64,000 bases of DNA. It comes from a virus. The stretch covers positions 1 through 64,000 of the IMG/VR virus record IMGVR_UViG_3300048834_001178. One strand, written 5' to 3'. Of this stretch, positions 34,526-52,060 are shown piece by piece. A program made the translations under genes and the position numbers. A model generated the notes under the pieces. That model was given only the letters and a program-made list of their open reading frames with translations, was not told where the DNA came from and ran no database searches. The number at the start of each line of letters is the position of its first letter. Position 1 is the stretch's first letter.

Positions 34526-34954
34526 ATGGCAATCAAGCTCGGCATGGAGGCCGCCCTCAAGTACAAGGTCGGCGGTCAGGGCGGCGCGGGTGCGTGGACG
34601 GCGCTCGGCAACACCCGCGACGTGACGCTCAACCTCGAGGCGGGCGAGGCGGACGTGACCACCCGCGCCAACAGCGGCTGGCGGGCGACGGTCGCCACGC
34701 TCAAGGAGGCGAGCGTCGAGTTCGAGATGGTCTGGGACACAGCGGACGCCGGGTTCACCGCCATCAAGAACGCGTTCTTCGGCAACGACCCGATCGGATT
34801 CCAGATCCTCGATGAGACGAGCGGCCAGGGCCTGCAGGCGGACTTCTCCATCACGAACTTCTCGCGGAACGAGGCGCTGGAAGAGGCGATCACGGTGTCC
34901 GTCACGGCGAAGGTGACGTACTCGGCGACGGCGCCCTCATGGATCGGCGGCTGA
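34526..34954 (+). CDS. major tail tube protein
   Basis: A 142-residue protein (KLGMEAALKYKVGGQGGAGAWTALGNTRDVTLNLEAGEADVTTRA...GWRATVATLKEASVEFEMVWDTADAGF in pieces). This is the familiar pattern of siphovirus tube proteins: an early 'lgntrDvtl.leageaDvTtR', then 'w.a..atlkeasve'. The C-terminal SITNFSRNEALEEAITVSVTAKV closes the beta sandwich. Hexameric rings stack along the tape measure. Ribosome site aaaggag. Confidence 0.8.
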   Translation: MAIKLGMEAALKYKVGGQGGAGAWTALGNTRDVTLNLEAGEADVTTRANSGWRATVATLKEASVEFEMVWDTADAGFTAIKNAFFGNDPIGFQILDETSGQGLQADFSITNFSRNEALEEAITVSVTAKVTYSATAPSWIGG

Positions 34955-36716: not shown

Positions 36717-38711
36717 GTGGCCGACACCCGTGGCATCCGAGCAGGCCGAGCCTTCGTTGAGCTGGGCGTCAGCGACAAGCTGTCGGCCGGGCTGAAGGCG
36801 GCCCAGAAGAAGCTCGAAGCCTTCGGCGCGGGGCTGCGGTCCATCGGCACCAAGATGGCAGGCATCGGCGTCGCGGCGATCACCGCGCTGCTTGGCACCG
36901 CGAAGGCCTTCTCCGACTCCGGCGATGCGCTCGACAAGATGAGCGCCCGCACGAGCGTGAGTGTCGAGGCCCTCAGCGAGCTCGGTTACGCGGCCGACCT
37001 CTCCGGCACGGACATGGAGACGCTGGAGAACGGCCTCCGCGTCATGCAGAAGACGCTTACGGAGGCGTCGCAAGGCTCCAAGGGGGCGAACGAGGCTCTC
37101 GCGCGGCTCGGGCTGACGGTGCAGGACCTGGCCAAGCTCTCCCCCGACGAGCAGTTCAAGCTCCTGGCCGATCGCATCTCCCGCATCCAGGACCCCGCAG
37201 CCCGCGCCGCGATGGCGATGGAACTCTTCGGCAAGGCGGGGACGAAGCTCCTGCCGCTCATGGCCGACGGAGCAGCGGGCATCAACGAGATGCAGGAGCA
37301 GGCCCGCAAACTCGGGCTGACGGTGAGCACGGAGACGGCCAGGGATGCCGCCGAGCTCAACGACGCGCTGGGCACGCTCTGGAAGGTCCTCAAGCAGGGT
37401 GTCTTCACGATTGGCGGGGCGCTCGCACCCACCATCAAGGACCTCACAGAGCGGATCACACGCATCGTTGTGAGCGCCACGGCGTGGGTGAAGGCGAACA
37501 AGGAAGCGGTGGTCTGGGCGCTCAAAGTCGCGGCGGCGGTCGCGGTCGCGGGGATTGCCATCGTCGGCCTGGGCTACATCATCTCCGGCATCGGCGCGGC
37601 GCTTAGCATCGTGGCCGCCGTCATCGGCGGGATCGGGACGGCATTCAGCCTGATCGGGGCCGCCATCGGCGCGATCCTCACGCCCGTCGGCCTGACCATC
37701 GCCGCGATCGTGGCGCTGGGCGGCACATTGCTGGTCGTCACCGGTGCGGGCGGCGAGGCCCTTTCGTGGCTGGCGGAGAAGTTCACCGAGCTGCGTGACT
37801 GGGTCGGCAAGGTGGTGGGCGGCATCTCCGATGCTCTTGCCGCCGGCGACATCGCACTCGCAGCCGAGATCCTGTGGCTGTCGCTCAAGGTCATCTGGCA
37901 GCAGGGTGTGGCGGCGCTCAACAATGCGTGGCTCGGCGCGAAGGAGTTCTTCGTCTCCACGGCCTACTCGATGTGGTACGGCGCTCTGGCTGCGGCCGAG
38001 ATCGTGTTCCACGCACTCGAGGTCGCGTGGATCGAGACGACCGCCTTCCTGTCAAAGACCTGGACCAACTTCGCCACCGGCTTCCAGATGATCTGGGAGG
38101 AGGCGTCGAGCTGGGTCGCCAAGCGGATGCTGGAGATCCAGGGGCTGTTCGATGACGGGCTGGATGTTGAAGCCGCCAAGAAGGCGGTGGACCAGCAGCT
38201 CGAGTCCCGCCTCATCGAACTGGAGAACGCTGCTCAGCAGTCGGTGACCGCACGCGAGGGGCAGCGCGAACAGCAGCGCCGCGATGCGGCGGCGATGCAC
38301 GAAGCGACGCTGTCCGCGATCGGCCAGGACTTCGAGAACGCACAGGAAGCCCTGCGCAAGGACACCGAGGCCGGGTTCGCCGAGTCACAGGCGGCGCTCG
38401 ACGCCGCGAAACAGAAACTCGCCGCCGCGATCGAGGAGGCCCGCAAGAAGCGCGAGGCCGCCGACGCGGAGAAGGGACCTGGTCGTCCCCAACGCGACCT
38501 CCTCGCGGACTTCGAGGAGCGGCTGTCCGGCCTCGGGGCGGCCATCGGCAAGGGCATCAGCGTCACCGGGACGTTCAGTGCGGTGGCCGTCTCCGGTCTG
38601 GGCACGGGTGGCGACGCCGCCGAGCGCACCGCCAGCGCCACCGAGCAGACCGCCCGCAACACCAAGCGTCTGCTGGATGCCAGCGTCGACAACGGGCTGC
38701 GGTTTGCCTGA
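36717..38711 (+). CDS. tail tape measure protein
   Basis: A 664-residue protein, GTG start. It opens with AFVELGVSDKLSAGLKAAQKKLEAFGAGLRSIGTKM (in pieces), a common tape-measure beginning. Helical coiled regions flank hydrophobic segments at about 260-345 (AAVAVAGIAIVGLGYIISGI, AIVALGGTLLVVTGAGG). A second coil (480-590, QREQQRRDAAAMHEATLSAI) precedes a short C-terminal region. It sets tail length; at roughly 0.15 nm per residue this implies a tail near 100 nm, a textbook estimate. The membrane-like segments may act in DNA injection. Confidence 0.88.
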   Translation: MADTRGIRAGRAFVELGVSDKLSAGLKAAQKKLEAFGAGLRSIGTKMAGIGVAAITALLGTAKAFSDSGDALDKMSARTSVSVEALSELGYAADLSGTDMETLENGLRVMQKTLTEASQGSKGANEALARLGLTVQDLAKLSPDEQFKLLADRISRIQDPAARAAMAMELFGKAGTKLLPLMADGAAGINEMQEQARKLGLTVSTETARDAAELNDALGTLWKVLKQGVFTIGGALAPTIKDLTERITRIVVSATAWVKANKEAVVWALKVAAAVAVAGIAIVGLGYIISGIGAALSIVAAVIGGIGTAFSLIGAAIGAILTPVGLTIAAIVALGGTLLVVTGAGGEALSWLAEKFTELRDWVGKVVGGISDALAAGDIALAAEILWLSLKVIWQQGVAALNNAWLGAKEFFVSTAYSMWYGALAAAEIVFHALEVAWIETTAFLSKTWTNFATGFQMIWEEASSWVAKRMLEIQGLFDDGLDVEAAKKAVDQQLESRLIELENAAQQSVTAREGQREQQRRDAAAMHEATLSAIGQDFENAQEALRKDTEAGFAESQAALDAAKQKLAAAIEEARKKREAADAEKGPGRPQRDLLADFEERLSGLGAAIGKGISVTGTFSAVAVSGLGTGGDAAERTASATEQTARNTKRLLDASVDNGLRFA

Positions 38712-38740: not shown

Positions 38741-39559
38741 GTGCCGGTCGAGGTGTTTGAGAAGTTCGAGAGCCGCCGCTCCACCAAGGCGAACCAAGCC
38801 TCGCAGTCGTCTGCGGAGCTCGGCTACATCGTGCGCGGCACCGCCGACGACCTCGCGGCCCGCACCGCAGCGCAGGCGGCCTCCCCGGCAACCTACGACA
38901 CGCTCCCTCGCCAGACCATCCAGATCGAGCCCATCGGCCCGCAGCTGTGGGACGTCACTGTCCGCTACAGCCAGAACGCCTCCACCGGCACGAGCACCCC
39001 GAGCGAGTCCTCGTTCACCTTCGAGACCGGCGGCGGGACGCAGCACATCACCCAGAGCCTGCAGACCATGCAGCGCCGCCCCGCCCCCGGCACCACCGCG
39101 CCGGACTTCGGCGGAGCGATCGGCGTCACCGCCGACGGCGTTGAGGGCGTCGACATCACCATCCCGGTCTACCAGTTCTCCGAGACGCACTACTTCACCG
39201 ATGCCCAGGTCACCGCTTCGTACAAAGGCGCGATCTTCTCCTGCACGGGCAAGACCAACGCCGGCTCATTCCGCGGGTTCGCGGCCGGCGAGGTGCTCTT
39301 CCTCGGCGCGACGGGCTCCAAGCGCGGCGACGGCCCGGATGACGACTGGGAGATCACGTTCCGCTTCGCGGCGAGCCCCAACCAGACCAACCTGACCGTC
39401 GGTCCCGTCACCGGAATCAACAAGAAAGGCTGGGAGTACCTGTGGGTCCGCTACGCCGACGCGGAGGACTCGGGCTCGGGCGCGATCATCAAGAAACCCA
39501 TCGCCGCGTACGTCGAGCGCGTGTACGACCAGGCCAACTTCGGAGCACTCGGAATCTAA
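38741..39559 (+). CDS. distal tail / baseplate protein, unknown type
   Basis: A 272-residue protein, GTG behind gaaggag. The beginning VEVFEKFESRRSTKANQASQSSAELGYIVRGTADD (in part) and PRQTIQIEPIGPQLWDVTVRY suggest a virion protein. The middle (SSFTFETGGGTQHITQS, GVTADGVEGVDITIPVYQFSETHYF) and end (WEITFRFAASPNQTNLTVGPVTGINKKGWEYLWVRY in part) are beta-rich. Position after the tape measure corresponds to the distal tail or hub protein. No named family. Confidence 0.65.
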   Translation: MPVEVFEKFESRRSTKANQASQSSAELGYIVRGTADDLAARTAAQAASPATYDTLPRQTIQIEPIGPQLWDVTVRYSQNASTGTSTPSESSFTFETGGGTQHITQSLQTMQRRPAPGTTAPDFGGAIGVTADGVEGVDITIPVYQFSETHYFTDAQVTASYKGAIFSCTGKTNAGSFRGFAAGEVLFLGATGSKRGDGPDDDWEITFRFAASPNQTNLTVGPVTGINKKGWEYLWVRYADAEDSGSGAIIKKPIAAYVERVYDQANFGALGI

Positions 39560-39562
39560 AGC

Positions 39563-40603
39563 ATGCCCGACGACCTCCGCAAAGTCCGCTCCGGTCAGCC
39601 GCTCCGCATCCCCGCGGGCGCGTACAACGCGTTCGTCGATGCGGCGGTCGATCTGCGCGCGCGACAGGGGCGGGGCCAAGCCGTCGCCGGTCCTCTCGTC
39701 GAATCCGCCCAGCGTGGTATCGGCGTGGTGCTGGTCCGCAACGATTCGGACGAGCTGATCGAGCCGCACCACGCGCTGGCGATCACCGGCGTGCTGGTCG
39801 AGCCCGGTGAGGACGATCAGGAGCGAACCTTCCACAGCCGCACGCCTCTGACGGGCGATGTGGCGACCGAGGTGTCCGACATGCTCGCCTTCGCGGTGGC
39901 GCTCCAGCCGATCAAGCCCAATGCCCTCGGTCCCTGCGTGCTCACCGGCGTGACGACCGCCCGGGTCTACATCACCAATGAGACCGACACCACCTGCGAA
40001 CTCGCGGCCGACGAGACGGTCCTGGCGAGCACGCCCATGAGCGGCATTCCGATCCTGTGGAAGGAGGATGGCACCGGCGAGAAGTGGGCGGTGATCGAAC
40101 TCGGCCGCCCCTCGCCGGGACGCATTACCGCGATCCTCGGCGCGGCCCAGCCGATCCCCACCGAGCGCAACCGCTGGCGCTACCCGTGGGTCGAGGCTCA
40201 GATCGACGGCAACCCGGGCAGCCCGGACTACCTGCGCTACGTGCCGGTCGAGAACGGCCTGACCTCGCAGGCCCCCAGCGGCGGCGAGGACCCCACGCGC
40301 CTGGCGATCAACCGCCTCGAGGCCCACCACATGAACGACTCCGAGCCCGGCTCGGGGTTCGGCGGCCTGCTGGGGCTGGGCCCGGTGTGCGAGCTCCCGG
40401 GCGTGCTCCCCAAGTGCCCGCCCGCGCGATCGCTCAAGCCCAAGCTCGTGCCGATCCCCGAAGGCGTGTGCGTGCAGATGACTTGCGAGCGCAACAGCCG
40501 GGGCAAGCCGGTGTGGGTCTTCGTGGCGATGAGCTTGATCGAGATCGCCGACCCCGCCGACGAGGACCGCAAGTTCAACCTCTACATCGGAGGTGCTGAA
40601 TGA
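39563..40603 (+). CDS. virion protein of the tail tip, unknown type
   Basis: A 346-residue protein (RKVRSGQPLRIPAGAYNAFVDAAVDLRAR at the N terminus). This beginning, 'irsGqplripA.tyNafvdaa', is common in planctomycete prophage proteins next to tail genes. Beta-rich repeats follow, then a Pro/Gly linker (GSGFGGLLGLGPVCELPG) and a small C-terminal domain with CVQMTCERNSRGKPVWVFVAM. Probably a tail-tip or fibre-associated structural protein. It overlaps the next gene as ATGA. Confidence 0.62.
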   Translation: MPDDLRKVRSGQPLRIPAGAYNAFVDAAVDLRARQGRGQAVAGPLVESAQRGIGVVLVRNDSDELIEPHHALAITGVLVEPGEDDQERTFHSRTPLTGDVATEVSDMLAFAVALQPIKPNALGPCVLTGVTTARVYITNETDTTCELAADETVLASTPMSGIPILWKEDGTGEKWAVIELGRPSPGRITAILGAAQPIPTERNRWRYPWVEAQIDGNPGSPDYLRYVPVENGLTSQAPSGGEDPTRLAINRLEAHHMNDSEPGSGFGGLLGLGPVCELPGVLPKCPPARSLKPKLVPIPEGVCVQMTCERNSRGKPVWVFVAMSLIEIADPADEDRKFNLYIGGAE

Positions 40604-41193
40604 CAACGACCACACCGGCACAGGCAACGCCGCTGGATGCCAAGCGTGCCAAGGAACGGGCCAAGTACCTGGCGCTGGCGAACAAGCCCGGCTCGAAGTA
40701 CGGCTCGTCCAACCACGGCCAGGCGGCGATCCCGCTCATCCAGGAGAGCAAGCCGAGGTTCGTGGTGGACTTCGGCTGCGGCCGCAACGACCTTGTCCGC
40801 GAGCTGCGGCGCCTCGGCATCGACGGGCTGGGCGTCGACTTTGCCTTCCCCGAGGCGGACCTCGTGCGCCCCATGCACGCGACCACCCTCCAGGCGGGCA
40901 TCGCCGACGTGGTGACGAGCTTCGACGCTCTCGAGCACCTCCTGCCCGAGGATGTTGACCTGACGCTCGCGGAGATGCGCCGCGTCGCGGTGCCGCGCGG
41001 ACGGTTCATCCTCTCGATCTGCACGCGGCCGAGCACGACCACCGTCGCCGGAGAAGGTCTGCACCCGACGGTGCGTCCGCGGGACTGGTGGCTCGACCGC
41101 ATCGCCCGCGTCGGCGTCGCGAGCAAGCCCAGGGCGGGGTCCCGCTACATCGTCGGGCGGTTCAAAAGTGATGGGGGGTGCTGCGGTGCGTGA
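40600..41193 (+). CDS. SAM methyltransferase of the tail-end cassette
   Basis: A 197-residue class I methyltransferase: VVDFGCGRNDLVRELRRLG (SAM motif), GVDFAFPEADL, VVTSFDALEHLLPEDVDLTL and VPRGRFILSICT. The short N-terminal region contains AKERAKYLALANKPGSKYGSSNHG. It starts the group of DUF115-like, Hint and glycosyltransferase genes. Neighbouring sugar genes suggest a small molecule or glycan substrate rather than DNA; no DNA target-recognition domain is present. Confidence 0.8.
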   Translation: MTTTTPAQATPLDAKRAKERAKYLALANKPGSKYGSSNHGQAAIPLIQESKPRFVVDFGCGRNDLVRELRRLGIDGLGVDFAFPEADLVRPMHATTLQAGIADVVTSFDALEHLLPEDVDLTLAEMRRVAVPRGRFILSICTRPSTTTVAGEGLHPTVRPRDWWLDRIARVGVASKPRAGSRYIVGRFKSDGGCCGA

Positions 41194-42100
41194 GAACCAG
41201 TCCGACATCGCGGCGCTTCAGTCCGGGCTCAAGGCGCGCAAGCCCGCCCGTGATGGCCTGCGCCTCTACACCGCCCCGCCGACGTTCGAGTCGGTGTCGC
41301 TGAGCGGGTTCTACCGGGGCCGGTCCGCGTTCCTGATGCTCTCCGGTCCGTCGCTCAAGCAGATCGACCTGTCGCTGCTGGACGCCCGCGGCATCGTCAC
41401 GATGGCCGTCAACAACGCATGGTCCGTGCGGCGTCCGACGCTCTGGACCTGCGTTGATGACCCCGGGCGCTTCATCGATGTGGGCTGGAAGGACCCGGGC
41501 ATCCTGAAGTTCGTGCCCACGTGCATGTGGGAAAAGCGGCTGAAGGTGATGAACCCCGACGGCACGCTCCGCAACAGCGCCTTCAAGGTCCACCAGATGC
41601 CCGGCGTGCTGTTCTTCCGGCGCAGCGATCACTTCGACCACGAGCGATTCCTCACGGGAGACACGGTCTCATGGGGCAACGACGCGAAGAACCCCGACTC
41701 GCTGGGCATCACCGGCAAGCGCTCGGTCATGCTCGTCGCCCTCCGGCTGCTTTACTACCTCGGCTTCTCGACGGTGTACCTGCTCGGCTGCGACTTCAAG
41801 ATGGACGCGGAGCGCAAGTACGCCTTCGACGAGCACCGCGCGACCAACGCGATCCGGCACAACAACGTGCTGTATGACTCGCTGTCGCGCCGGTTCGAGG
41901 CGCTCAAGCCCCACTTCGAGAAGCACCGCTTCCGCGTGGTCAACTGCTCGCCCGGAAGCGCCCTGGAGGTCTTCGAGAAGATGGCCTTTGAGGACGCGGT
42001 GAAGGCAGCCGCTTCCGAGTGCGGCAAGCCGATCCGCACCGACGGGTGGTACGAGCCCAATCCCAAGGCGAGCGCCCCGCCACAGGAGGCCGCACGATGA
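41168..42100 (+). CDS. DUF115 / MptE-like Rossmann protein
   Basis: A 310-residue protein. The N-terminal part (FLMLSGPSLKQIDLSLLDARGIVTMAVNNAW...TLWTCVDDP) and YLLGCDFKM match the DUF115 family, whose fold is shared by 6-hydroxymethylpterin diphosphokinase-like proteins and glycosyltransferases such as sialyl- or flagellin-modifying enzymes. The GPSL loop and late 'llGcD' are typical. It overlaps the methyltransferase; starts at 41168 (GTG), 41171 (ATG) or 41186 (GTG) are all possible. Together with the GT32 genes it suggests virion or receptor-binding-protein glycosylation. Confidence 0.7.
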   Translation: MMGGAAVRENQSDIAALQSGLKARKPARDGLRLYTAPPTFESVSLSGFYRGRSAFLMLSGPSLKQIDLSLLDARGIVTMAVNNAWSVRRPTLWTCVDDPGRFIDVGWKDPGILKFVPTCMWEKRLKVMNPDGTLRNSAFKVHQMPGVLFFRRSDHFDHERFLTGDTVSWGNDAKNPDSLGITGKRSVMLVALRLLYYLGFSTVYLLGCDFKMDAERKYAFDEHRATNAIRHNNVLYDSLSRRFEALKPHFEKHRFRVVNCSPGSALEVFEKMAFEDAVKAAASECGKPIRTDGWYEPNPKASAPPQEAAR

Positions 42101-43611
42101 GCGACGGCCCCACGCGGTACTACCTCTACATCCCCGTCTGGGCGACGGGACGCGCTCCCCAGGGCGGCGGGTCGAGCAACTACTCGACGCCGTCGGGCTC
42201 GACACCCGAGAGCACGTACTCGACCCCGACCAGCACGCCGAGCATGCCGCCGAGCTACTCGACGACGGGCGATGTGATCTACACGACCGGCCCGGGCGGC
42301 ACGCCCACGCTCACGTTCTACACCACCGGCGCGTTCACGAGCAACACGCCGGGGACGACGCACACGCCGTCGAGCAGCGGGCCGATGTCATCCAGCGGGA
42401 TGACCACCGACTCGTCGCAGACGCCGACGAGTTCGCAGACCCCGTCGAGCACGGGCTCGTCGGGCATGAGCAGTTCCGGTGGCGGGAGTTCCTCGGGGGC
42501 GTCGAGTGGCATGTCCTCGGGTGCGAGTTCGGGGGCGTCGTCGGGCATGTCCACCGGTGGCAGTTCCGGTATGTCCTCGGGCATGTCGTCGGGTGGGTCG
42601 TCCGGTGGTTCATCGGGCGGCGGTTCGTCCGGTGGCGGGTCGTCGGGCGGCGGCGGATCCAGCGGCGGCGGCAGCGGCCCCGGTGGGTCGGGTCCGGGCG
42701 GATCCGGGCCTGGCGGCTCGGGGCCGGGTGGTTCTGGCCCGGGCGGCAGCGGTCCCGGCGGCTCAGGTCCCGGCTCCAACTGCGTGCTCGCGGGCACACC
42801 CGTGATGCTGGCCGACGGATCGACTAAGCCCGTCGAGGCGCTCCAACCGGGCGACCGTGTCGCGGCGCTCGACGTGGCGGGCCTGGACCGCGACGTGCCG
42901 TGGCGAGCCCAGTACCAGTGGCTCCGTCCGTGGGCGGAGGCGGCGCTCACGCCCGTCACGGGCACCGTCGGCAGCGTGAAGATCGGATCGCACGACGGGT
43001 TCGTCACCATCAACGGCCGCCTACGCCTGACGCCCGAGCACCCGGTGCTGCTGAAGCGCAACGAGGAGATCGGCTTCGCGTCGGCGGAGTTCGTGCAGGT
43101 CGGCGATGCGCTCGTGCGCCAGGGCCTGAGCGAGGAACTCGTCGCGTCAGTTGATCGGTCGGGCGAGCGCGTGACGACAGTGGCCGTGCATGTGCCCGGA
43201 CTCAACGTGTTCCTGGCGGGCGGCGTGTGGATTCACAACGACATGCCCGCCACCCAGCAGAGCGGGTCCGGATCGTCGTCGGGTTCGGGGTCGAGTTCAG
43301 GCTCCGGGTCCGGGTCGTCGAGCGGGAGCGGCTCCGGCAGCGGAAAGTCCAGCGGCTCGTCCATGTCGAGCTCGGGGTCCAGTTCTGGGTCGAGTTCCGG
43401 CAGTTCGTCAGGCTCATCGAGCGGCAGCGACAGCGGCTCCGGCCCGCCCGGCTCCGGATCGGGCTCCGGCAGCGTCCAGCAGTCAGTGGCGCTGGGCGAG
43501 GGCGCATCGTCCTTCATCGAGGGTGGCATGGAGGGTGTGCCTCCGGCGAAGTGGCAGCAGAGCGGTTTGGGCAGTCTCAGCAGCGGCATCGAAGAGGAGG
43601 CAAAGGCGTGA
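42097..43611 (+). CDS. Ser/Gly low-complexity protein with a Hint (intein-like) domain
   Basis: A 504-residue protein in an ATGA overlap. Residues 1-228 are Thr/Ser/Gly/Pro-rich, ending in about seven SGPGG repeats. Residues 229-381 are a Hint domain: Cys229 in NCVLAGTPVMLADGSTKPVE, DRVAALD, the block B-like RLRLTPEHPVLL, AEFVQVGDALV and a C-terminal FLAGGVWIHND with His380-Asn381. The residue after Asn is Asp, not Cys, Ser or Thr, so this fits bacterial intein-like (BIL) or A-type Hint domains that cleave or splice unconventionally. Residues 382-470 are another Ser/Gly tract. The ordered C terminus is EGASSFIEGGMEGVPPAKW. Probably a self-processing tail appendage. Confidence 0.8.
   Translation: MSDGPTRYYLYIPVWATGRAPQGGGSSNYSTPSGSTPESTYSTPTSTPSMPPSYSTTGDVIYTTGPGGTPTLTFYTTGAFTSNTPGTTHTPSSSGPMSSSGMTTDSSQTPTSSQTPSSTGSSGMSSSGGGSSSGASSGMSSGASSGASSGMSTGGSSGMSSGMSSGGSSGGSSGGGSSGGGSSGGGGSSGGGSGPGGSGPGGSGPGGSGPGGSGPGGSGPGGSGPGSNCVLAGTPVMLADGSTKPVEALQPGDRVAALDVAGLDRDVPWRAQYQWLRPWAEAALTPVTGTVGSVKIGSHDGFVTINGRLRLTPEHPVLLKRNEEIGFASAEFVQVGDALVRQGLSEELVASVDRSGERVTTVAVHVPGLNVFLAGGVWIHNDMPATQQSGSGSSSGSGSSSGSGSGSSSGSGSGSGKSSGSSMSSSGSSSGSSSGSSSGSSSGSDSGSGPPGSGSGSGSVQQSVALGEGASSFIEGGMEGVPPAKWQQSGLGSLSSGIEEEAKA
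42674..42774 (+). repeat. tandem repeat coding SGPGG
   Basis: About seven consecutive 15-bp units encode Ser-Gly-Pro-Gly-Gly immediately before the Hint domain. Third-position changes between units (ggc/ggg/ggt, tcg/agc) show the amino-acid pattern has been kept while the DNA drifted. Confidence 0.8.
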
Positions 43612-44231
43612 TTCCGAAGGTCATCTACACGGCGGACCTCATTGAGACTCCCGACAAGCAGCGGCTCACGGCGTGGCGGCACGCGTGGCAAACCATGCAC
43701 CCCGAGTGGGATGTGGTGACGCTCACGCTAGACACCAAGCCGCCGATCCTGAACTACGACCAGTGGCAGCAGACCTTCGGGCTCGCCGAGCCCGCGGCGT
43801 CCGCCGCACGGCTGAACCTGCTCCGCTACGAAGTGCTGGCCCGCGAGGGCGGCGTCTTCGTCGATCCGGACCGACTGCCGCTGCGCCCGCTCGACGAACT
43901 CGTCGCCGGGGTTGGCGCGTTCTGTTCCACGATCGCCAGCCACGGCGCGAGCAGGCCGCACATGCTCTCGCCGTCGGTGCTCGGCGCGACGCGGAATCAT
44001 CCGATGCTCTGGCACGCGATCCGCGATCTGCCGCACTCAGTGCTGGTCTATCGCGGTGTGTGGGACCAGAGCGGGCCGGGCTTCCTCACCCGCGTGGTCC
44101 GCGACCACGGGCACTTCCGCGACGTGGTGCCGTTCCACTGGGCGATCTTCGAGCAGGGCGAGGACGCCGCCAAGGCCCACGGCGGCGCGTTCGCCTTCGT
44201 GCAGGCGAAGGCTGCGGAGGTGGTGGCGTGA
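43608..44231 (+). CDS. GT32-type glycosyltransferase (first)
   Basis: A 207-residue protein, GTG behind gaggaggcaaaggc, overlapping the Hint gene as GTGA. It begins IPKVIYTADLIETPDKQRLTAWRHAW, with SAARLNLLRYEVLAREGGVFVDPDRLPLRPLDEL. The DxD metal site is DPD (near 86-88), and the 'aRlnLLRYevLareGGvfvDpD' phrase is that of sugar-binding DXD (Gly_transf_sug, GT32) enzymes such as Och1-like transferases. Later: MLSPSVLGATRNHPMLWHAI and GPGFLTRVV. It lies in a cassette with a close relative and a possible glycan methyltransferase. Confidence 0.82.
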   Translation: MIPKVIYTADLIETPDKQRLTAWRHAWQTMHPEWDVVTLTLDTKPPILNYDQWQQTFGLAEPAASAARLNLLRYEVLAREGGVFVDPDRLPLRPLDELVAGVGAFCSTIASHGASRPHMLSPSVLGATRNHPMLWHAIRDLPHSVLVYRGVWDQSGPGFLTRVVRDHGHFRDVVPFHWAIFEQGEDAAKAHGGAFAFVQAKAAEVVA

Positions 44232-44932
44232 GCACGGCCGCACGCACCACCTCAATCCCGCGGGTCCTGCACCAGATCTGGCTGGGCAAGGGCGAAATGC
44301 CGCTCAATCAGCGGCGCTGGCGGCGGCGCTTTGCCGAGATGAACCCGCACTGGGAGATGCGGCTGTGGACCGACGGCAACCTGCCGCCGATCCTCAACCG
44401 CAACGCCTGGGACGCCTGCGGCAACGTCGGCGGCACGCCCGGCTGCGTGATGCGGTCGGACATCCTGCGGCTGGAGGTACTGGCCCGGTTCGGAGGGGTC
44501 TATCTCGACACCGACGTGAAGCCGATCCGCCCGCTCGACGAGATGTGTCCGCCCGAAGTACGAGCGTGGGCTGCCTGCGAGCAACTCGACATCGTGTCCA
44601 ACGCGGCGATGGGGTTCCCGCCCACCCACCCGGCGATGTGGCACGCGGTGGCGATGATCGAAGAGTCGTTCTTCGAGCGCCGGTACGTCGGTGATCAGGC
44701 GGGGCCGGGCCTGATCGCGCGGGTGGTCACCCAGTACGACGACGTGGTGCTCTATCCGCCGACGTACTTCCACCCGACGGTCGGAGAGTCGAAGTCCAAT
44801 CCCGACGCAGCGAGGTTCCTTCTGGGCGCGCACCTGTTTGCCGGGACTTGGGTTGAGGCCAATCGATGGCGGTACGCGAGCGCGTGGGACGCCAACGCAC
44901 TCTCTGAGAATCCGCAAAGTCTCAGCGAATAG
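44228..44932 (+). CDS. GT32-type glycosyltransferase (second)
   Basis: A 234-residue paralogue of the previous protein, GTG start in a GTGA overlap. It carries IPRVLHQIWLGKGEMPLNQRRWRRRF, the standard GT32 opening 'IPrviHqiWlg', and MRSDILRLEVLARFGGVYLDTDVKPIRPLDE with DxD as Asp94-Thr-Asp96. Later FPPTHPAMWHAVAM and GPGLIARVV parallel its neighbour. Probably adds a different sugar to the same acceptor. Last phage-like gene; about 200 bases without a gene follow. Confidence 0.85.
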   Translation: MSTAARTTSIPRVLHQIWLGKGEMPLNQRRWRRRFAEMNPHWEMRLWTDGNLPPILNRNAWDACGNVGGTPGCVMRSDILRLEVLARFGGVYLDTDVKPIRPLDEMCPPEVRAWAACEQLDIVSNAAMGFPPTHPAMWHAVAMIEESFFERRYVGDQAGPGLIARVVTQYDDVVLYPPTYFHPTVGESKSNPDAARFLLGAHLFAGTWVEANRWRYASAWDANALSENPQSLSE

Positions 44933-45082
44933 CACCCCCTGGTGATCGCTGCTGATGCGCCTGTGGCTGGCACAGATCCAAGTCTAGTGAAAAGCAGGCT
45001 CGTGGTGCGGAGGGCAAACGACTCCCACGGGCCTCGCTCAAGCGCTCTACCCTTCAATCCTATCCACTCGGCGGCAGGCATG

Positions 45083-45112
45083 TTCGCATGCTGATCGGGT
45101 TGGTAGTACAAT
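45083..45112 (+). promoter_or_regulatory. sigma-70-like promoter of the methyltransferase-McrBC operon
   Basis: TTCGCA and TACAAT hexamers are separated by 18 bases. Transcription would begin about 15 bases before the ATG at 45133, giving a nearly leaderless mRNA. It lies in the first clearly lower-GC stretch after the phage genes. Confidence 0.4.
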
Positions 45113-45132
45113 GGCCAGCGAGCATCTCCCGC

Positions 45133-46146
45133 ATGACACCCCCGGCAACCAAGAAACCGCGAGCAAAGACACCCAAGTCATCCCAGACTGGCACTGTTGG
45201 CCCCCGATGGCCGACCGTGGCACTGAACCCAGTTGCCACGCCAGACTCGGCATTCATGAACCGCGAGTTGCGCCGGCACGCATTCTACAGCGACGACCGG
45301 ACTCTCATCTTCTGTGCGGATGCAGCGAAAGCGATTGGCTGGCTGGTCTCCGCAGGTGTGACCGTGGATACCACCGTCACTTCACCGCCCTTCTACGGCC
45401 AGCGGGACTACGGCGTCGATGGGCAAATCGGTTTGGAGTTGCACCCGTCAGAGTACCTGTCCCGTCTGGTGTCAGTCTTCCGAAAGTGCCGCGAGGTCTT
45501 CAAGGAGACCAGTAGCCTGTGGGTCAATCTTGGCGATACGTACTGGAGTGGTCGAGGCGAGCACCGCAGTGGAGAGGCCAAACAGGCAGCGAGGCGATTC
45601 GGACTTCGACCCCAGGACCGCAAGGGCGATGGGATTTGGTGCAGGCCGAAGCAACTCCTACTCATCCCACATCGTTTCGCAATCGCCATGCAGGAAGCTG
45701 ACTGGATCCTCCGCAACGACAATGTGTGGGTCAAACCCAATCCGGTCCCAGACCAAGTAAGAGATCGCTGCTCGATGGGGCACGAGTATGTTTTTCACTT
45801 CGTGACCCAACGGTTCTATTACTACCGTCGCGATAGAGTCGGTCGGCCAAACCCAGGCAAATCGCCCTTGCCACCGTTGGACGTTTGGGTGGTTCCGCCG
45901 TCCAAAGGTAGTAACGGACATCCTGCTGCGTTCTCTGCCGACTTGGTTGACCTACCGATCCGTGCGACAACTCCGCCGAATGGCGTGGTATTGGACCCGT
46001 TCGCTGGAAGCGGTACAACGGTCTTGCATGCCCGCAGGCTCGGCTTCCGCGCGATCGGCATCGACATAAAGCCGGAATACTGTAAGGCGATGGCCGCAGC
46101 CTGCCAAAAGGACCCACCGATTCTGCTGCCGCTCTCTGAGAAGTGA
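45133..46146 (+). CDS. DNA N4-cytosine-type methyltransferase
   Basis: A 337-residue beta-class DNA amino-methyltransferase. Motif IV is TSPPFYGQRDYG (SPPF at 84-87), the form seen in PvuII- and BamHI-like N4-cytosine enzymes. Motif I is LDPFAGSGTT (287-296), preceded by TPPNGVV. The middle region (45-75% of length) holds target-recognition residues I cannot assign. The ATG after the TACAAT box is preferred to one 15 codons upstream inside the promoter. It is followed by McrB- and McrC-like genes, so it probably marks self DNA that those proteins would otherwise restrict. Confidence 0.85.
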   Translation: MTPPATKKPRAKTPKSSQTGTVGPRWPTVALNPVATPDSAFMNRELRRHAFYSDDRTLIFCADAAKAIGWLVSAGVTVDTTVTSPPFYGQRDYGVDGQIGLELHPSEYLSRLVSVFRKCREVFKETSSLWVNLGDTYWSGRGEHRSGEAKQAARRFGLRPQDRKGDGIWCRPKQLLLIPHRFAIAMQEADWILRNDNVWVKPNPVPDQVRDRCSMGHEYVFHFVTQRFYYYRRDRVGRPNPGKSPLPPLDVWVVPPSKGSNGHPAAFSADLVDLPIRATTPPNGVVLDPFAGSGTTVLHARRLGFRAIGIDIKPEYCKAMAAACQKDPPILLPLSEK

Positions 46147-46167
46147 TGCGACTGGAGACAATTGACC

Positions 46168-48186
46168 ATGGGCACGTTTCTCAATGCGGACACTATCAGA
46201 ATCGCGGTTCGTCGGCTCGGCGACTCGCTCGCGCAGACGGGAATGCATGATTTCCTCGTGCTCAAGCGCGCTTCGGTGCTCAGCAAGTCACCGAAGGTGG
46301 TTCTCTCGGAACGAAACCAGCCATTCATGCAGGCGATTGAGCAATTGACTTCGTGCAATGAACCATTGGGCGCCGCTCTCGACGCCTCATGGAATCTGCC
46401 ACCATTCATAAATGTGTTCGGTACGGCTAAGCACAGCAAAGGACCGTTCCGTTCCGCCAAGTTCACTTCGAACGGACCGGCTGACACCGTGAGCAAGTCG
46501 CGTCCGTGGCAAGCCCTGGTGGAAGTGCACGACGAGCGCCCGAGATCCGTTACGTTTCGTCGCGACTATCTACAGCACGCTAAGTCCGTCCTGCTCAAGG
46601 CACAGTCACCGAGTGATGAACTCCCGCGACTCTCCGATGCGGCGATCTGGTTCTTCCGTGCATCCGACATCTCTGCGCTCGCAGCATCGAAGGATCGGAA
46701 CAGCATTCTCGGTGGCATGGTACGCGCATTCGTGGATGCCCTGCACCTCACCAAAGAAGAAGTAGCACTCCTCTTTGTTGATGCTAACGCTCTGGACGCG
46801 TCGGTCTATCCCGAAGTGCTTACCTCCGACTCCGTCGCGTCGCCGATCTCGTACCTTACCCTAGGTAGCGTCGAAGCAACTCCCGTGACCGAGACTGCTG
46901 GCAAGGTGTCATGGGATCTCGCCGTCTCCCTTGCCGCCAAAGAGTTCATAATTCTGACGGGCCTCTCGGGCACTGGAAAAACCCGCGGAGCAATCCGGCT
47001 CAGCGCGGCAGTTACCGCTGGAGCCGCCCAACCGGTCGAGTTGATCCCAGTTGCCGCGGACTGGAACGACTCCCGTCCTCTCCTTGGGTATCGCCATCCA
47101 TTCGGTCGTACGATAAATGAGGCTGGCCAAAGCGCCCTGGCAGACACCTACGAGATCACGCCCGCGCTGCGCCTTGTTTTGCGAGCGAGTCACCCGGACA
47201 GTGAGCGGATTCCACACTTTCTGATTCTGGACGAGATGAACCTCTCGCACGTCGAGCGCTACTTCAGTCCAGTACTTTCCCTTCTCGAAGCGGCGCGAAG
47301 CACGTCGAGGGCGAGCACTATCCCGCTGATTCCAGCAGCCGATACCCAGTTAATCGCTTCGGTGTTGCAGCGTGAGAATCCGAACTCTCTTGAAGCAAAG
47401 GCCGCCTCAATCCAAGCCGCACAGGGGGCCGGGATTGGCATTCCGGGCAATCTGTTCATCGTTGGCACAGTGAATGTGGACGAAACTACCTACATGTTTT
47501 CGCCCAAGGTGCTGGACCGTGCCCATGTAATCGAGGTGGCTTCGATATCGCCGCTCGAGTTTGTGACAGGAACAGGATCCGCCGAGGAGTTGGTTTCGGC
47601 ATCCGCCGCGCTGGAACTGCTCCAGTGGTCAATCGAGCGGCGAGACGAGTCGGAGCGGACAGACGGCGCGGTGGATCTGCTGGAGTCAGTTCATACGGAT
47701 TCTGGACTAGATCCAGCGGTACTCGATGCCATCAAGAATGCTTTGAAGTGCGCGCTCGAAGGATCGCATGTTCTGCTTGGTCCGATCGGCTTCGGCTTGG
47801 GATATAGAGTGGTTCGCGAGTGCTTTGACTACGTCGCAACGTGCCTTCGACTGGCGGTGATCGCAGAGTGGACTCCAGAGCAGATTCAAGCCGCCTGGCA
47901 CCATTGGATAGACCGGGCGATTCTGCAGAAAGTGTTGCCAAAGCTCCACGGCAACCGGCTTCAGTTGACCGGGCCCCTCACTGCCACAATAGCCTTCTTT
48001 TCTGGCGGAACGGCCATCACGGAACCTCGCGCGGCATATCAGATGGCTGGTGGCAATGAGGTGGGCGTAGACGAATCGCTCAAGCTCACCTTCGGTTCGC
48101 CTACCGCTCTTCCTCTCTGTATCAAGAAGCTGTCTCGCATGCTGTGGCGTGTTGAAACCACCGGATACGCGGGGTTTATAGAGTGA
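46168..48186 (+). CDS. McrB-like AAA+ restriction subunit
   Basis: A 672-residue protein. The N-terminal 250 residues are a variable, presumably DNA-reading region with FGTAKHSKGPFRSAKF and WFFRASDISAL. The AAA+ motor follows: TGLSGTGKTRGA (Walker A, 264-275), VELIPVAADWNDSRPLLGYRHPF, FLILDEMNLSHVERYFSPVL (Walker B near 351), and FIVGTVNVDETTYMFSPKVLDRAHVIEV (in part), the McrB signature with its sensor Asn. McrB motors use GTP in E. coli; the base preference cannot be read here. ATG chosen behind ggagaca. GTGA overlap with the next gene. Confidence 0.87.
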   Translation: MGTFLNADTIRIAVRRLGDSLAQTGMHDFLVLKRASVLSKSPKVVLSERNQPFMQAIEQLTSCNEPLGAALDASWNLPPFINVFGTAKHSKGPFRSAKFTSNGPADTVSKSRPWQALVEVHDERPRSVTFRRDYLQHAKSVLLKAQSPSDELPRLSDAAIWFFRASDISALAASKDRNSILGGMVRAFVDALHLTKEEVALLFVDANALDASVYPEVLTSDSVASPISYLTLGSVEATPVTETAGKVSWDLAVSLAAKEFIILTGLSGTGKTRGAIRLSAAVTAGAAQPVELIPVAADWNDSRPLLGYRHPFGRTINEAGQSALADTYEITPALRLVLRASHPDSERIPHFLILDEMNLSHVERYFSPVLSLLEAARSTSRASTIPLIPAADTQLIASVLQRENPNSLEAKAASIQAAQGAGIGIPGNLFIVGTVNVDETTYMFSPKVLDRAHVIEVASISPLEFVTGTGSAEELVSASAALELLQWSIERRDESERTDGAVDLLESVHTDSGLDPAVLDAIKNALKCALEGSHVLLGPIGFGLGYRVVRECFDYVATCLRLAVIAEWTPEQIQAAWHHWIDRAILQKVLPKLHGNRLQLTGPLTATIAFFSGGTAITEPRAAYQMAGGNEVGVDESLKLTFGSPTALPLCIKKLSRMLWRVETTGYAGFIE

Positions 48187-50126
48187 CCGCAGTCACGTGC
48201 CTTCATCGTGTGCGATTTGGCTGGCCCAACGGCACGTCTCTTGACATCGAGTGGGCCTCGGGTGATGAGGGCCCGGCTCATCCGCTGTCGGCACTATCTC
48301 ATTCGATCACGGGTTGGATCGAACGCCTGCCCGATCAGCTCAGTATTGCGGGTATTCCGGCACTGTCTGTCGATCAGGGGCAGCCATCGAGCCTCTTCGA
48401 GCCAGTGCGGCTTCGCGAACAGACCGACTACACGTTAGACTTTCGTATTCGCGCGAGTCTTCCAGAGGCCACGACTGCGTGGCAGGCCAATCCGTCGTGG
48501 CCGTTGCCTGCTCGGTTCAATGGCGTTTATCGAACGCAGGCACCTCGTCGGTGGATGGTTGACGGCGAGTTTCTTCGAGTCGGTGGCGCCTTAAACTTCG
48601 GGTCATTCGTAGGCGTGGCGCACTTGGAGCTGCCAGACGGAGCGTGCGTTCCGGTCGAAGTCATCTGTACTAAGATCGGATATGTAGACGACTTTCGAGC
48701 ATTGCTTGAGCAGGTGGGGCACGAGGTTGTCGAGCTGCTCTTGACTGTGGGAACTCCCACGGGAATACCGCTTGCGACGTCCGGCGAGCTGAGCGCATCG
48801 CCACTCGCATTTTTGTTTCACTTGCGTTCTCTCCTCGCTTCCCGAGAACTGCCTGATGCGATCGAGTCGATTCTCAGGCGGCCGCATGAGCGCATAGTTG
48901 AAGACCGCAAGGAAGCGTTTGTGTGGGAATTCCGACATCCCGATGTGGCGGCGATGTCCCGTGCGGCTGAGTATCTTCCAGATGTCAGTTTCAGTGCGAG
49001 TAGGCCGGTCTGTCTCCCAGTGCCGCTCAGGTATCACGGTCGCAGCCGCTCGGTGTCGAGGGACACGCAAGAGAATCGATACGTTAAGGCACTTCTGCAG
49101 GATATTGTGAGGCGAGCGGACATCTGTGTTGGCCAGCTTCGCGAGGCAGGCAGCCTAACAGCCATGCGCGAGCTTGTTAGTCATGTGGATCGCATGCGAG
49201 AATGGTTGTCGCGCCCCCTGTGGAGGGAGGTGGGCCCTTTTAGGCAGATGCCGACAAACTCGCAAGTACTGCAACGTCGATCCGACTATCGACGTGTCTT
49301 TGACGCAGACATGCGCTTACACCTTGGACTTAGATTGCCGTGGCTTCCAACCACAAATGACGCGGATAGCATCTTGGGCGACATGCGGCCGATTGACGTT
49401 CTGTATGAATATTGGTGCTTCCTGGTGATTCGGAGACTTGTGGCGTCGATCTGCGGAGCGACGATCGAGCCCCTGGACAGTCTCCTTGTACGCTCAATGA
49501 ATGGCCTTAGCCTTCAACTGGTGCGCGGCAAGCAAAGCAAGACTGTGTTTCGGTTGGCAATCGCAGGGAAGGCTCCATTCCAAGTGGAGCTGTACTTCAA
49601 TCGGCACTTTGCAGGTGTCGCCGGCGCAGTTGAGGGAAGGTCTTACTCCGTTGGCTTGCGGCCCGACATCAGCCTTTGTGTGGAACGCATTCAGGCGGGT
49701 ACGATTGGTGCACGGCACTGGCTTCACTTCGACGCAAAGTACCGGCGAGAGATCGATGTGGCGGCATTAGTAAGCGCGACGCAGGAGTCCTCGGGTGGGC
49801 CCGAGTCGTGCATAAAGATCGAAGAGACCTACAAGCGGGCCGACTTGTACAAGATGCACGCGTACCGTGATGCGATTCTCTCGACTCGAGGCGCGTATGC
49901 GCTGTTCCCTTCGCTAGGTGGAGGCGAGGCTCTGTTTGTCCGAGGTGCATCCATCGCAGGCGCAAAGTTGCCGAGCGTAGGGATGTTCCCATTGAGTCCT
50001 GCGCGGGCAGTGGACCAAGAGCAACCCTTGCGGAGATTTCTATCGGCGGTGTTGTCTCAGATCTCCGATGCGTCGCGAGTGGTTGATGAATACCTTGGCC
50101 CATGCCCGCCAATGACCTCAACGTAG
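48183..50126 (+). CDS. McrC-like nuclease subunit (DUF2357 type)
   Basis: A 647-residue protein. The DUF2357-like region has GVAHLELPDGACVPVEVI...SPLAFLFHLRSLLASRELPDAIESIL, and the central SRPVCLPVPLRYHGRSRSVSRDTQENRYVKALL is the typical 'etre..ntpENrfvk' block. LYEYWCFLVIRRL precedes a PD-(D/E)XK nuclease: SVGLRPDISL (Asp), HWLHFDAKYRRE (DAK) and DLYKMHAYRDAI. It would be activated by the McrB-like motor. Its 3' end overlaps the convergent helicase gene by 70 bases. Confidence 0.85.
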   Translation: MTAVTCLHRVRFGWPNGTSLDIEWASGDEGPAHPLSALSHSITGWIERLPDQLSIAGIPALSVDQGQPSSLFEPVRLREQTDYTLDFRIRASLPEATTAWQANPSWPLPARFNGVYRTQAPRRWMVDGEFLRVGGALNFGSFVGVAHLELPDGACVPVEVICTKIGYVDDFRALLEQVGHEVVELLLTVGTPTGIPLATSGELSASPLAFLFHLRSLLASRELPDAIESILRRPHERIVEDRKEAFVWEFRHPDVAAMSRAAEYLPDVSFSASRPVCLPVPLRYHGRSRSVSRDTQENRYVKALLQDIVRRADICVGQLREAGSLTAMRELVSHVDRMREWLSRPLWREVGPFRQMPTNSQVLQRRSDYRRVFDADMRLHLGLRLPWLPTTNDADSILGDMRPIDVLYEYWCFLVIRRLVASICGATIEPLDSLLVRSMNGLSLQLVRGKQSKTVFRLAIAGKAPFQVELYFNRHFAGVAGAVEGRSYSVGLRPDISLCVERIQAGTIGARHWLHFDAKYRREIDVAALVSATQESSGGPESCIKIEETYKRADLYKMHAYRDAILSTRGAYALFPSLGGGEALFVRGASIAGAKLPSVGMFPLSPARAVDQEQPLRRFLSAVLSQISDASRVVDEYLGPCPPMTST

Positions 50127-52060
50127 TCTCGGCCCTTCGCGATGGCCGTGAGCACACCAGCGGCGTTGCTATGCGGAGACACTTGAAGCACCAGGGTGTC
50201 AATCGCGCGAGTCATCGGAATCATGCCCCATCGCGCGGAAAACCGGTCGGCAACCTCCTGCTGAGTCTCGAACAAATCCTTCGGTCGCCGCAGCCCCTCC
50301 TCAAGCTGTCGCTGCAGCAGACGGTCAAAGTCAAGGCAGACAACAGTCCACCCCTCCAGCCCGCGGCACGATTCGTACTTAACGATTCGAAACTGTTGCA
50401 CATTCTCAGGAAACGTGTCCCTGTTGGCGGCGATCGAGCCGTCCCACACCTGCTCGCCCCATTGCTGAAGGGTTGCTCCGATGCCTGTACTTGTGGAGCC
50501 AGAGCTTCCCGTCACACAGAACAGTGCATCGACCTGCCGATTGCCGGCAGCCTGATGCTCGCCCATGATCCTGCTGTGCACTTGTTGGGTGTACGGTCCC
50601 ACCACCACAATCACGCGGCCACCGAGTACCTCATCGTTTATCGCCATATCCCACTCAAGGTGGGAAGCAGCAACGAACGCCTCAACAAACGCGCAGATAT
50701 TTGCCTTGAGACGTAGCGACTTGCGTAGCGGAACAATCTGCCGGGATTCGGTCGGGGCGAGCAACGTCCAATCACACCGCCCGTCGCGTCGCACGAGCTG
50801 GTCAACTCCATCCGCGACAATGATCCGGTTGGGTCCGAACAGTGCACCCAGAATGTCCCGCTCTTCTGTCGGCCAATCCTGTGCCTCGTCAATGAGCACG
50901 AAGTCCCAGTTGAACAACGACGGATGAGCCTTCCAAGCCTCCTCCTGCTGAAGCGTCTCTCTGGATTCGCCCGCAAATAGCTCTCGAAGTACCAGCTTCT
51001 TCGCTTGAAACTCCTCTGCGGGGAACGGCTCACCCTCTTGGATGGGCGGAGCTTCGCCCCAGGCGGACATCAACTCCCAAAAGAATCTCTCGCTGGTACG
51101 AATGCTGACCGTAGGGTCGTCGAGATTCTCGCGAATTCCCATGAGGTGCATTAGACGGCGCAAGTCCGATGCGAGAGCGCGGTTGTACGTGAGGAACAGG
51201 ACTCGCGCGCCGCGGTCTTCTCTCAGACGGTTGGCGAGCTGCAGAAGTCGCACGGTCTTCCCCGATCCACCTCGCCCGCGGAAGATCAAGAGCTGGCTTC
51301 CCAGCTTCTTCATGTATTCTGGAAGCTCGGGTTCGACGGTGCGCTTGGTAATGCGCTCGATCTTCTGACGGTCTAGAGGCGACGCCTCGATACGTCGTGT
51401 GAAGATGTCAATCGCGTTCTTCACCTCGGTCGCGGCATCATCGCGACCACAGCGAACAAATGAGTTTTGCCAGGGCTTGTGCAGGTCCCGTTTGATGTCC
51501 TCGTGCCGCTGGTTGACGATTGCCCGCAGGAAGTCCTTGGCGGTCACGTCAGCGCCCAGGATATTGCTTTGAACCTTGGGCAATGCTCGAGCTGGGACGT
51601 TCCTCAACCACAGGGCCGAAAGCCAGAAGGGCGACCGAAAGCCCTGGCGCTCGACATACGTCTTGAGAGAGTGCACCTGCTTGAGAGTCTGGTCTGTGGC
51701 ACCGTGCCACTCCACCTGCCCGTTCGCTCGATTGATGTAACGGACAAGTACTTGATTGCCCTCAAACCGGATGGCCTCTGGAGGGTGGCCTTTGACCTCG
51801 ATCGCGATGGCGAAGTTGGACAACCGCGCCGGCCGACTGCGCAGTTCCTCGGCGAGCAGTTCTTCTGGAATGGGGACCACGCCCGTGCAGACCCCGAGGA
51901 CCAGCAAGTCGGTGTCCTGGACCTGGCAGCCGGGCGTAAATGCGCCCACCACAATGCGGACGTCTCCGCGTTCTCCGATCAACTCTTCAAGCGCCGGACG
52001 AAGAGCGAGCGCGGCCTTGTAGTTGTCGCTGGAGGTGTCGCCAAAGATCGAGACGCCCAT
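50057..52060 (-). CDS. NERD-like nuclease fused to SF1 (UvrD/Rep-type) helicase
   Basis: A 667-residue protein. Residues 15-145 resemble a NERD endonuclease: GAFTPGCQVQDTDLLVLG with Asp51, and FAIAIEVKGH with Glu88-x-Lys90. Residues 250-650 are an SF1 helicase: FRGRGGSGKT (259-268), LFLTYNRALASDL, FVLIDEAQDW (DEAQD at 390-394), VPLRKSLRLKANI, ESCRGLEGWTVVCLDFD and MIPMTRAIDTLVLQV. NERD-helicase fusions recur in defence islands. It lies 19 bases after the DUF1998 helicase gene, so it is the last member of that operon. Confidence 0.82.
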   Translation of the reverse strand: MGVSIFGDTSSDNYKAALALRPALEELIGERGDVRIVVGAFTPGCQVQDTDLLVLGVCTGVVPIPEELLAEELRSRPARLSNFAIAIEVKGHPPEAIRFEGNQVLVRYINRANGQVEWHGATDQTLKQVHSLKTYVERQGFRSPFWLSALWLRNVPARALPKVQSNILGADVTAKDFLRAIVNQRHEDIKRDLHKPWQNSFVRCGRDDAATEVKNAIDIFTRRIEASPLDRQKIERITKRTVEPELPEYMKKLGSQLLIFRGRGGSGKTVRLLQLANRLREDRGARVLFLTYNRALASDLRRLMHLMGIRENLDDPTVSIRTSERFFWELMSAWGEAPPIQEGEPFPAEEFQAKKLVLRELFAGESRETLQQEEAWKAHPSLFNWDFVLIDEAQDWPTEERDILGALFGPNRIIVADGVDQLVRRDGRCDWTLLAPTESRQIVPLRKSLRLKANICAFVEAFVAASHLEWDMAINDEVLGGRVIVVVGPYTQQVHSRIMGEHQAAGNRQVDALFCVTGSSGSTSTGIGATLQQWGEQVWDGSIAANRDTFPENVQQFRIVKYESCRGLEGWTVVCLDFDRLLQRQLEEGLRRPKDLFETQQEVADRFSARWGMIPMTRAIDTLVLQVSPHSNAAGVLTAIAKGRDYVEVIGGHGPRYSSTTRDASEI

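Follow-up and report, generated by a model that had tools for sequence, protein, structure and literature searches.

A bacterial intein-like domain and a conserved candidate acceptor lysine in a Ser/Gly-rich protein of a phage tail module

Introduction

To our knowledge, bacterial intein-like (BIL) domains have been known for about two decades, and their natural role is mostly obscure. Here we analyzed such a domain in a Ser/Gly-rich protein of 504 residues that is encoded in positions 1 to 64,000 of the virus record IMGVR_UViG_3300048834_001178 (this stretch is called the window; the IMG/VR record as a whole comprises 77,032 bases). The closest fold to the window domain is that of BIL2 from BUBL1 of the ciliate Tetrahymena thermophila (6y75, 6tmm). 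Splicing by BIL2 reportedly creates an isopeptide bond through K(epsilon-NH2) and conjugates ubl4 to ubl5 and to Ras (PMC8616854). In the window protein, a conserved lysine is the candidate counterpart. BIL2 differs in that it belongs to a eukaryotic polyubiquitin-like gene and is flanked by folded ubiquitin-like domains instead of Ser/Gly arms, and its identity to the window domain is 17–20%.

The BIL domains of Clostridium thermocellum (2lwy) and Neisseria MafB resemble the window domain in the Hint fold, Cys1, the TxxH motif, the C-terminal His-Asn, the lack of a nucleophile at +1, and the location in a variable, repetitive protein region, whereas the window protein belongs to a phage tail module, has Ser/Gly arms and a lysine motif in its C-terminal arm (C-arm), and contains no toxin domain. 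Literature searches found inteins of phages in genes for terminase, helicase, and reductase. Such canonical phage inteins (in terminase, helicase, recombinase, and ribonucleotide reductase) share the Hint fold and splice-site residues with the window domain, which in contrast has no Cys, Ser, or Thr at +1, lies outside a conserved enzyme site, and was gained or lost once according to the upstream-gene tree.

We propose that the BIL domain processes itself and passes a thioester to the conserved lysine of the C-arm, a reading to which we give a probability of roughly 0.4. We make this proposal because the fold is closest to BIL2 and because an invariant C-arm lysine is held on a flexible tether.

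The intein-like domain

A first-pass annotation of the window had described an intein-like domain that is opened by Cys229, closed by His380-Asn381, followed by Asp382, and embedded between two low-complexity Ser/Gly arms. The checked translation placed all of these residues at exactly these positions, and the architecture is borne out by the composition, with 38% Ser and 45% Gly in residues 114–227, 52% Ser and 27% Gly in residues 382–465, and 5% Ser and 10% Gly in the domain itself.

Pfam Hint_2 matched the window domain with an E value of 1.7e-5, yet under the curated cut-off (25.7 versus 28.4 bits), and it matched 35/35 aligned relatives at E <= 0.01. A search of the PDB with the single sequence gave designed proteins and one intein with weak E values only, and a profile was needed: the family profile found the C. 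thermocellum BIL structure 2lwy with an E value of 7.7e-6. With an AlphaFold model of the domain (predicted local distance difference test, pLDDT, 86.7), Foldseek returned 50 PDB chains at E <= 0.001, all of them inteins, BIL, or Hedgehog domains, the best E value of 2.3e-8 being that of Tetrahymena BIL2. VIA-align also ranked BUBL1 BIL2 at the top (Z 19.5, root-mean-square deviation 1.6, 133 aligned residues), with ranks 1 to 17, among them inteins and 2lwy, lying within 2 Z units of BIL2. Viral protein models were matched as well, some of them from uncultured phages under the names PASTA, fibronectin III, and collagen repeat. The matches to Hint-type structures exceed chance and uphold the original assignment.

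Judged by its sequence features, the domain is an A-type BIL domain and not a canonical intein. It has Cys1, TxxH, and the C-terminal His-Asn without a nucleophile at +1, and it lies in the variable region of a non-conserved protein, as the Ser/Gly arms vary in length and the domain is missing from nine complete relatives. With about 153 residues, it is too short for an endonuclease. A canonical intein was ruled out because of Asp382 at +1, the low-complexity site, and the single change on the upstream-gene tree, and a Hedgehog Hog domain was ruled out because the Hint domain is followed by a Ser/Gly arm instead of a sterol-recognition region. A polymorphic toxin with a pre-toxin HINT domain was dismissed as well, since scans of Pfam, NCBIfam, and PHROGs gave no toxin family after the Hint domain, where the C-arm is Ser/Gly low complexity. 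The best match of the whole protein in PHROGs was phrog_15127 at E 0.066, which we took as chance.

A simple codon model favored an antisense open reading frame (ORF) over part of the Hint gene. In a comparison of five relatives, substitutions in the Hint region showed the strongest synonymous excess in the annotated frame (proportions of synonymous and nonsynonymous differences, pS 0.47 and pN 0.13), a weaker excess in one antisense frame (0.38 and 0.16), and the reverse in the remaining four frames. We therefore rejected a frame artefact despite the preference of the codon model.

Conserved residues and the C-arm lysine

Conservation was tallied over 111 distinct complete ORFs that matched a pattern consisting of the Cys1 region (the residue itself being Cys, Ser, Ala, Thr, or Gly), the E-H pair of block B, and a Trp near the final His; the loci L109-L111, L138-L145, and L195-L200 were excluded as outside the family. 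The pattern also demanded two His residues, that of TxxH and the penultimate one. Cys1, for which the pattern permitted the other residues, was kept in 111/111, as was the Thr of TxxH, and the final Asn was found in 110 and the Asn at -1 in 109 of the sequences. The +1 residue was Asp in 105 cases, Thr in 3, Ala in 2, and Tyr in 1. The three relatives with Thr at this position (L135, L187, and L192; THN followed by T) could carry out ordinary splicing. Hint identity to the window domain falls to about 41% among the relatives, and dN/dS values of 0.10–0.20 among closer relatives indicate purifying selection, with 0.40–0.55 between distant clades.

These data bear on the explanation that the Hint fold is inactive and was retained as a structural module. 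The block F residues, which in our own alignment reading are unlike those of inteins, and the loss of the final Asn in one relative would be in line with it, but the conservation of Cys1, the TxxH Thr, and the final Asn over such distances and the purifying selection make it highly improbable.

A lysine is present in the C-arm of 111/111 sequences. In 109/111, it stands in a KxxGSS motif, and the two exceptions, L186 with KSSSSS and L192 with KSSGAG, retain the lysine. In 200 shuffles of every arm, the motif was present in 9.6 of the 111 arms on average and in 17 at most. In a set of 89 sequences, the motif started 20–54 positions into the C-arm (median 38, the +1 residue being position 1), occurred in 24/24 clusters at 90% and 12/12 clusters at 75% Hint identity, and was encoded by 51 different 18-mers, which means that selection acts at the protein level. 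The motif lysine is the sole lysine of the C-arm in 47/111 sequences. The N-terminal parts of 98 YYLYIPVW-type proteins, with 20,673 residues altogether, contain 7 Lys, all beside the N-terminal YFLY, and 0 Cys. Finally, the motif is absent from 9/9 complete relatives that have no Hint domain.

Possible processing routes

The earlier idea that the domain could cut the protein or transfer a part of it to an acceptor is well founded, as the needed residues are kept, there is no nucleophile at +1, and a candidate acceptor lysine is found in the same protein. In the proposed transfer to the lysine, the residues and the fold suggest that Cys229 would first convert the peptide bond that follows Asn228 into a thioester. 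The amine of Lys417 from the same or a neighboring chain would then be the main group to resolve the thioester, giving an isopeptide bond, with water as a side reaction, a step to which the conservation of the lysine and the BIL2 precedent point. Asn381 would cyclize and thereby free the C-arm at Asp382. This would leave a Ser/Gly-rich appendage, branched or cross-linked, that has lost the domain and would most likely sit on the tail.

A wider picture would be a covalently self-joined tail appendage in which the BIL domain passes the Gly-rich N-terminal arm (N-arm, up to Asn228) to the tethered lysine and excises itself, thus acting as an ATP-free, ubiquitin-like isopeptide stapler in the virion, with a cassette that moves between different tail proteins and possible parallels in unrelated phages whose tail proteins are collagen-like or contain poly-Gly. 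Taken as a whole, this picture is doubtful.

Several points weigh against a transfer to the lysine. The shuffle control leaves the relatedness of the sequences in place, which the cluster counts answer in part. Extra lysines occur in 64/111 C-arms, and the nine Hint-less relatives probably reflect only two events. SSGSS and then often a Phe or Met are conserved too, whereas an acceptor alone needs only the lysine, and the conserved motif could instead serve as a signal for binding or modification. Moreover, the Asp and His of intein block F look replaced in our alignment (by Ala or Ser and by Asn, respectively), and the domain of L094 (10688 onward) ends in His-His rather than His-Asn, yet this variant keeps Cys1 and the lysine motif.

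A strong rival is plain cleavage in combination with another use of the lysine motif. The BIL domain would cut at its N- and/or C-terminal end and separate the arms, which would serve appendage maturation or C-arm release, and the lysine would be part of a docking or modification signal outside the chemistry. This is possible, given that BIL domains without a +1 nucleophile are reported to yield mainly cleaved products (PMC7664689, PMC7765530) and that all cleavage residues are retained. It leaves unexplained why a lysine is found in every C-arm as opposed to the nearly lysine-free N-arm, and why the motif is missing wherever the domain is missing.

As a further route, Asn cyclization could be followed by ligation of the arms through a normal peptide bond, and the mature chain would then resemble the Hint-less relatives. 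Such nucleophile-less splicing has been reported as an alternative route of some A-type BIL domains (PMC5874633), the Hint-less relatives share the N-terminus and, in several cases, also match at the C-terminus, and the Thr at +1 of three relatives would agree with splicing. We nevertheless regard this route as improbable, as the +1 residue is mostly Asp, the lysine is not explained, and the domain is inherited vertically and not scattered.

Our literature searches turned up no phage BIL domain that is described as joining proteins through an isopeptide bond. The conserved lysine motif of the C-arm is the new and testable part, and the single conserved lysine offers a one-residue test in a family of 111 sequences with a fixed phage setting, in which the domain-less relatives are natural controls. 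If the lysine is the acceptor, the family would represent BIL-driven isopeptide ligation in a phage and offer a compact ATP-free tool for joining proteins. If it is not, the family would still link BIL domains to tail appendages and provide a clean system for studying the purpose of cleavage.

Glycosyltransferases and the C-terminal tail

The first-pass annotation had also considered that the arms are glycosylated with the help of the neighboring genes. In this explanation of a mucin-like appendage, the arms would be the substrate of a sialyltransferase-like protein and of the glycosyltransferases GT1 and GT2, and the Hint domain would be incidental or a length module. The sialyltransferase-like gene indeed adjoins upstream (PHROG E 4.7e-12) and overlaps the start of the Hint gene, the stop of which is overlapped by GT1. 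In mycobacteriophages, capsid and tail proteins are reported to be glycosylated by glycosyltransferases that the phages themselves encode (PMC12363180), and the window resembles these phages in having such genes near structural genes; in contrast to these virions, the system described here is known from its genes, and the link to the glycosyltransferases is the C-terminal tail.

The tally behind this link covered 70 of 81 complete ORFs, namely those with at least 600 nucleotides downstream. GT1 and GT2 were present in 36/36 ORFs with the tail EGVPPA (32 with and 4 without the Hint domain) as compared to 1/34 without the tail. Because of these counts, we conclude that the glycosyltransferases pair with the tail peptide and not with the Hint domain, and we rejected them as partners of the latter. 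The two downstream genes go with the tail, which has the consensus EGVPPAxWQ, rather than with the Hint domain or either Ser/Gly arm, and L194, which has a different architecture, has a similar tail together with glycosyltransferases. The tail peptide FIEGGMEGVPPAKWQ may be a target or docking site of GT1 and GT2. Two prophages with tandem Hint genes have no glycosyltransferase, methyltransferase, or sialyltransferase-like gene within 18–19 kb. An incidental role of the Hint domain is also contradicted by the strict conservation of its residues. The glycosylation idea is supported only in part, and a mucin-like appendage with these enzymes acting on the arms is improbable.

The sialyltransferase-like gene is found just upstream in all 88 rows of the upstream-gene tree, the rows having been selected for the presence of that gene. 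Its profile had an alpha-2,3-sialyltransferase as the best PDB match with a weak E value of 0.05, and the model of the protein was of low confidence (pLDDT 54).

Relatives, hosts, and inheritance

A scan with the N-terminal 113 residues detected 42 viral loci, and a scan of reference genomes detected 54 loci, nearly all in metagenome-assembled genomes of Phycisphaerales or other Planctomycetota; a few of the 54 are labeled as other phyla, for which binning errors are possible. The hosts are Planctomycetota, mostly Phycisphaerales. Among the Phycisphaerales genomes that were drawn, 26/151 match at E <= 0.001, some of these matches being weak and outside the family. The chromosome CP054186.1 harbors four of the loci and five Hint matches.

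Nine complete relatives keep the N-terminus without a Hint domain (L043, L044, L045, L048, L049, L096, L097, L106, and L107); ORFs truncated by contig ends were not scored as Hint-less. The upstream-gene tree excluded 11 contig-repeating loci, L013, and rows with <=220 matched residues of the upstream gene. The seven Hint-less rows with context form one clade, corresponding to one change with a support of 98/95. From their N-terminal sequence, L106 and L107 seem to be a second, separate case. As the tree shows one gain or loss and no scatter, the domain was inherited vertically with the phage, unlike a homing intein.

Some individual loci deserve mention. The Hint region of L016 (8664-9134) looks mosaic by eye, with a first part similar to the window clade and a second part similar to the L005 clade. 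In L012 (8050-8070), a helicase gene (like window 18500-19784) joins the Hint gene (like 43118 on) with a 20-base overlap, which reflects either the loss of 23 kb or a misassembly. L139 (502-3162), from a Phycisphaerales genome, encodes a cellular-looking protein with a signal-like segment (by eye) and a Hint domain, after which comes a Gly run.

Related proteins in other phages

The initial statement that no phage system of this form is described holds in part: unrelated phages have tail proteins annotated with an intein domain, and literature searches found no study of them. The record of phage Y3 reads 'contains intein domain' and that of phage NCTB 'large intein domain protein'. In Y3, Alexandra, AD1, Yoloswag, SNUABM_5, SNUABM_16, fHe-Yen9-02, and Afa-NA1, the protein has an 87-residue Gly-X-Y stretch and ends in a BIL domain, and in NCTB, poly-Gly precedes the terminal BIL domain. 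Similar records with collagen-like or poly-Gly segments and a BIL domain number 53 and 41 in overlapping sets, mostly from Erwinia phages.

The proteins of Y3, Alexandra, AD1, Yoloswag, fHe-Yen9-02, Afa-NA1, and NCTB are thus similar to the window protein in the Gly-rich repeat or poly-Gly, the BIL domain, and the tail gene cluster, and their HN is followed by a non-nucleophile or Thr. They differ in that the domain ends 3–12 residues from the C-terminus, without a long C-arm and without KxxGSS, and the phages are unrelated, with Hint domains that are about 28–31% identical to that of the window. The short C-tails of unrelated phage BIL proteins contain Lys in 15/15 cases, most of which are close relatives; this carries little weight, as a Lys within the last 3–12 residues is also found in 44–64% of 66 ORFs taken from these loci.

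The cassette is portable: in L131, L133, L174, L176, L193, and L194, poly-Gly, a BIL domain, and the lysine arm are attached to the 346-residue protein of the tail module or to one of its relatives. Next to this fusion gene, L131, L133, and L174 have another BIL gene with a different N-terminal domain. These cassette fusions argue for a tail role.

Gene order at the locus

The gene content of the window points to a siphovirus-like prophage, with a serine integrase, helicase, primase, terminase, portal, head, major tail protein, and tape measure. Downstream (3') of the tape measure gene, the order is 272-residue protein, 346-residue protein, methyltransferase, sialyltransferase-like protein, Hint protein, and two DXD glycosyltransferases (Table 1). 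The Hint protein is a putative tail-end protein, a label that derives from the gene position 3' of the tape measure gene. The first bases of the Hint gene coincide with the end of the sialyltransferase-like gene (42097-42100), and GT1, which starts at 43608, overlaps the stop of the Hint gene in turn, which suggests that translation of the Hint gene is coupled with both neighbors. A scan for promoters and terminators over 40000-46000 gave nothing usefully above chance.

Table 1. Positions of the Hint gene, its protein segments, and neighboring genes in the window
Feature	Position	Strand	Match or remark
Major tail protein	34526..34954	+	phrog_1407, E 4.8e-16
Tail length tape measure protein	36717..38711	+	phrog_8462, E 1.4e-49
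272-residue protein, order kept	38741..39559	+	No family match
346-residue protein	39563..40603	+	No family match; relatives in other phages fused to poly-Gly and BIL domain
Methyltransferase	40600..41193	+	Pfam Methyltransf_23, E 4e-9
Sialyltransferase-like (GT42-like) protein	41186..42100	+	phrog_4603, E 4.7e-12; CST-I 0.003, below cut-off
Hint/BIL-bearing Ser/Gly-rich protein, 504 residues	42097..43611	+	
Conserved N-terminal region, residues 1-113, begins MSDGPTRYYLYIPVWATG	42097..42435	+	Alignment; 42 viral and 54 genome loci
N-terminal Ser/Gly arm, ends in GPGGS repeats (residues 193-222) and Asn228 (-1)	42436..42780	+	
Hint/BIL domain, Cys229 to Asn381	42781..43239	+	
Asp382, +1 residue	43240..43242	+	Non-nucleophile
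C-terminal Ser/Gly arm and tail, residues 382-504	43240..43608	+	
Lysine motif KSSGSSM (Lys417)	43345..43365	+	Candidate acyl acceptor
C-terminal tail FIEGGMEGVPPAKWQ	43513..43557	+	Co-occurs with downstream glycosyltransferases
Glycosyltransferase 1 (GT1), DXD type	43608..44231	+	Gly_transf_sug, E 1.6e-5
Glycosyltransferase 2 (GT2), DXD type	44228..44932	+	Gly_transf_sug, E 1.1e-8

Further downstream, in the region 45217-52000 of the window, the G+C content drops from about 70% to 58%. This region encodes a DNA methylase (Pfam E 3.1e-43) and contains a large ORF with the Walker A-like sequence GLSGTGKT, recognized by eye, and is perhaps a defense cargo.

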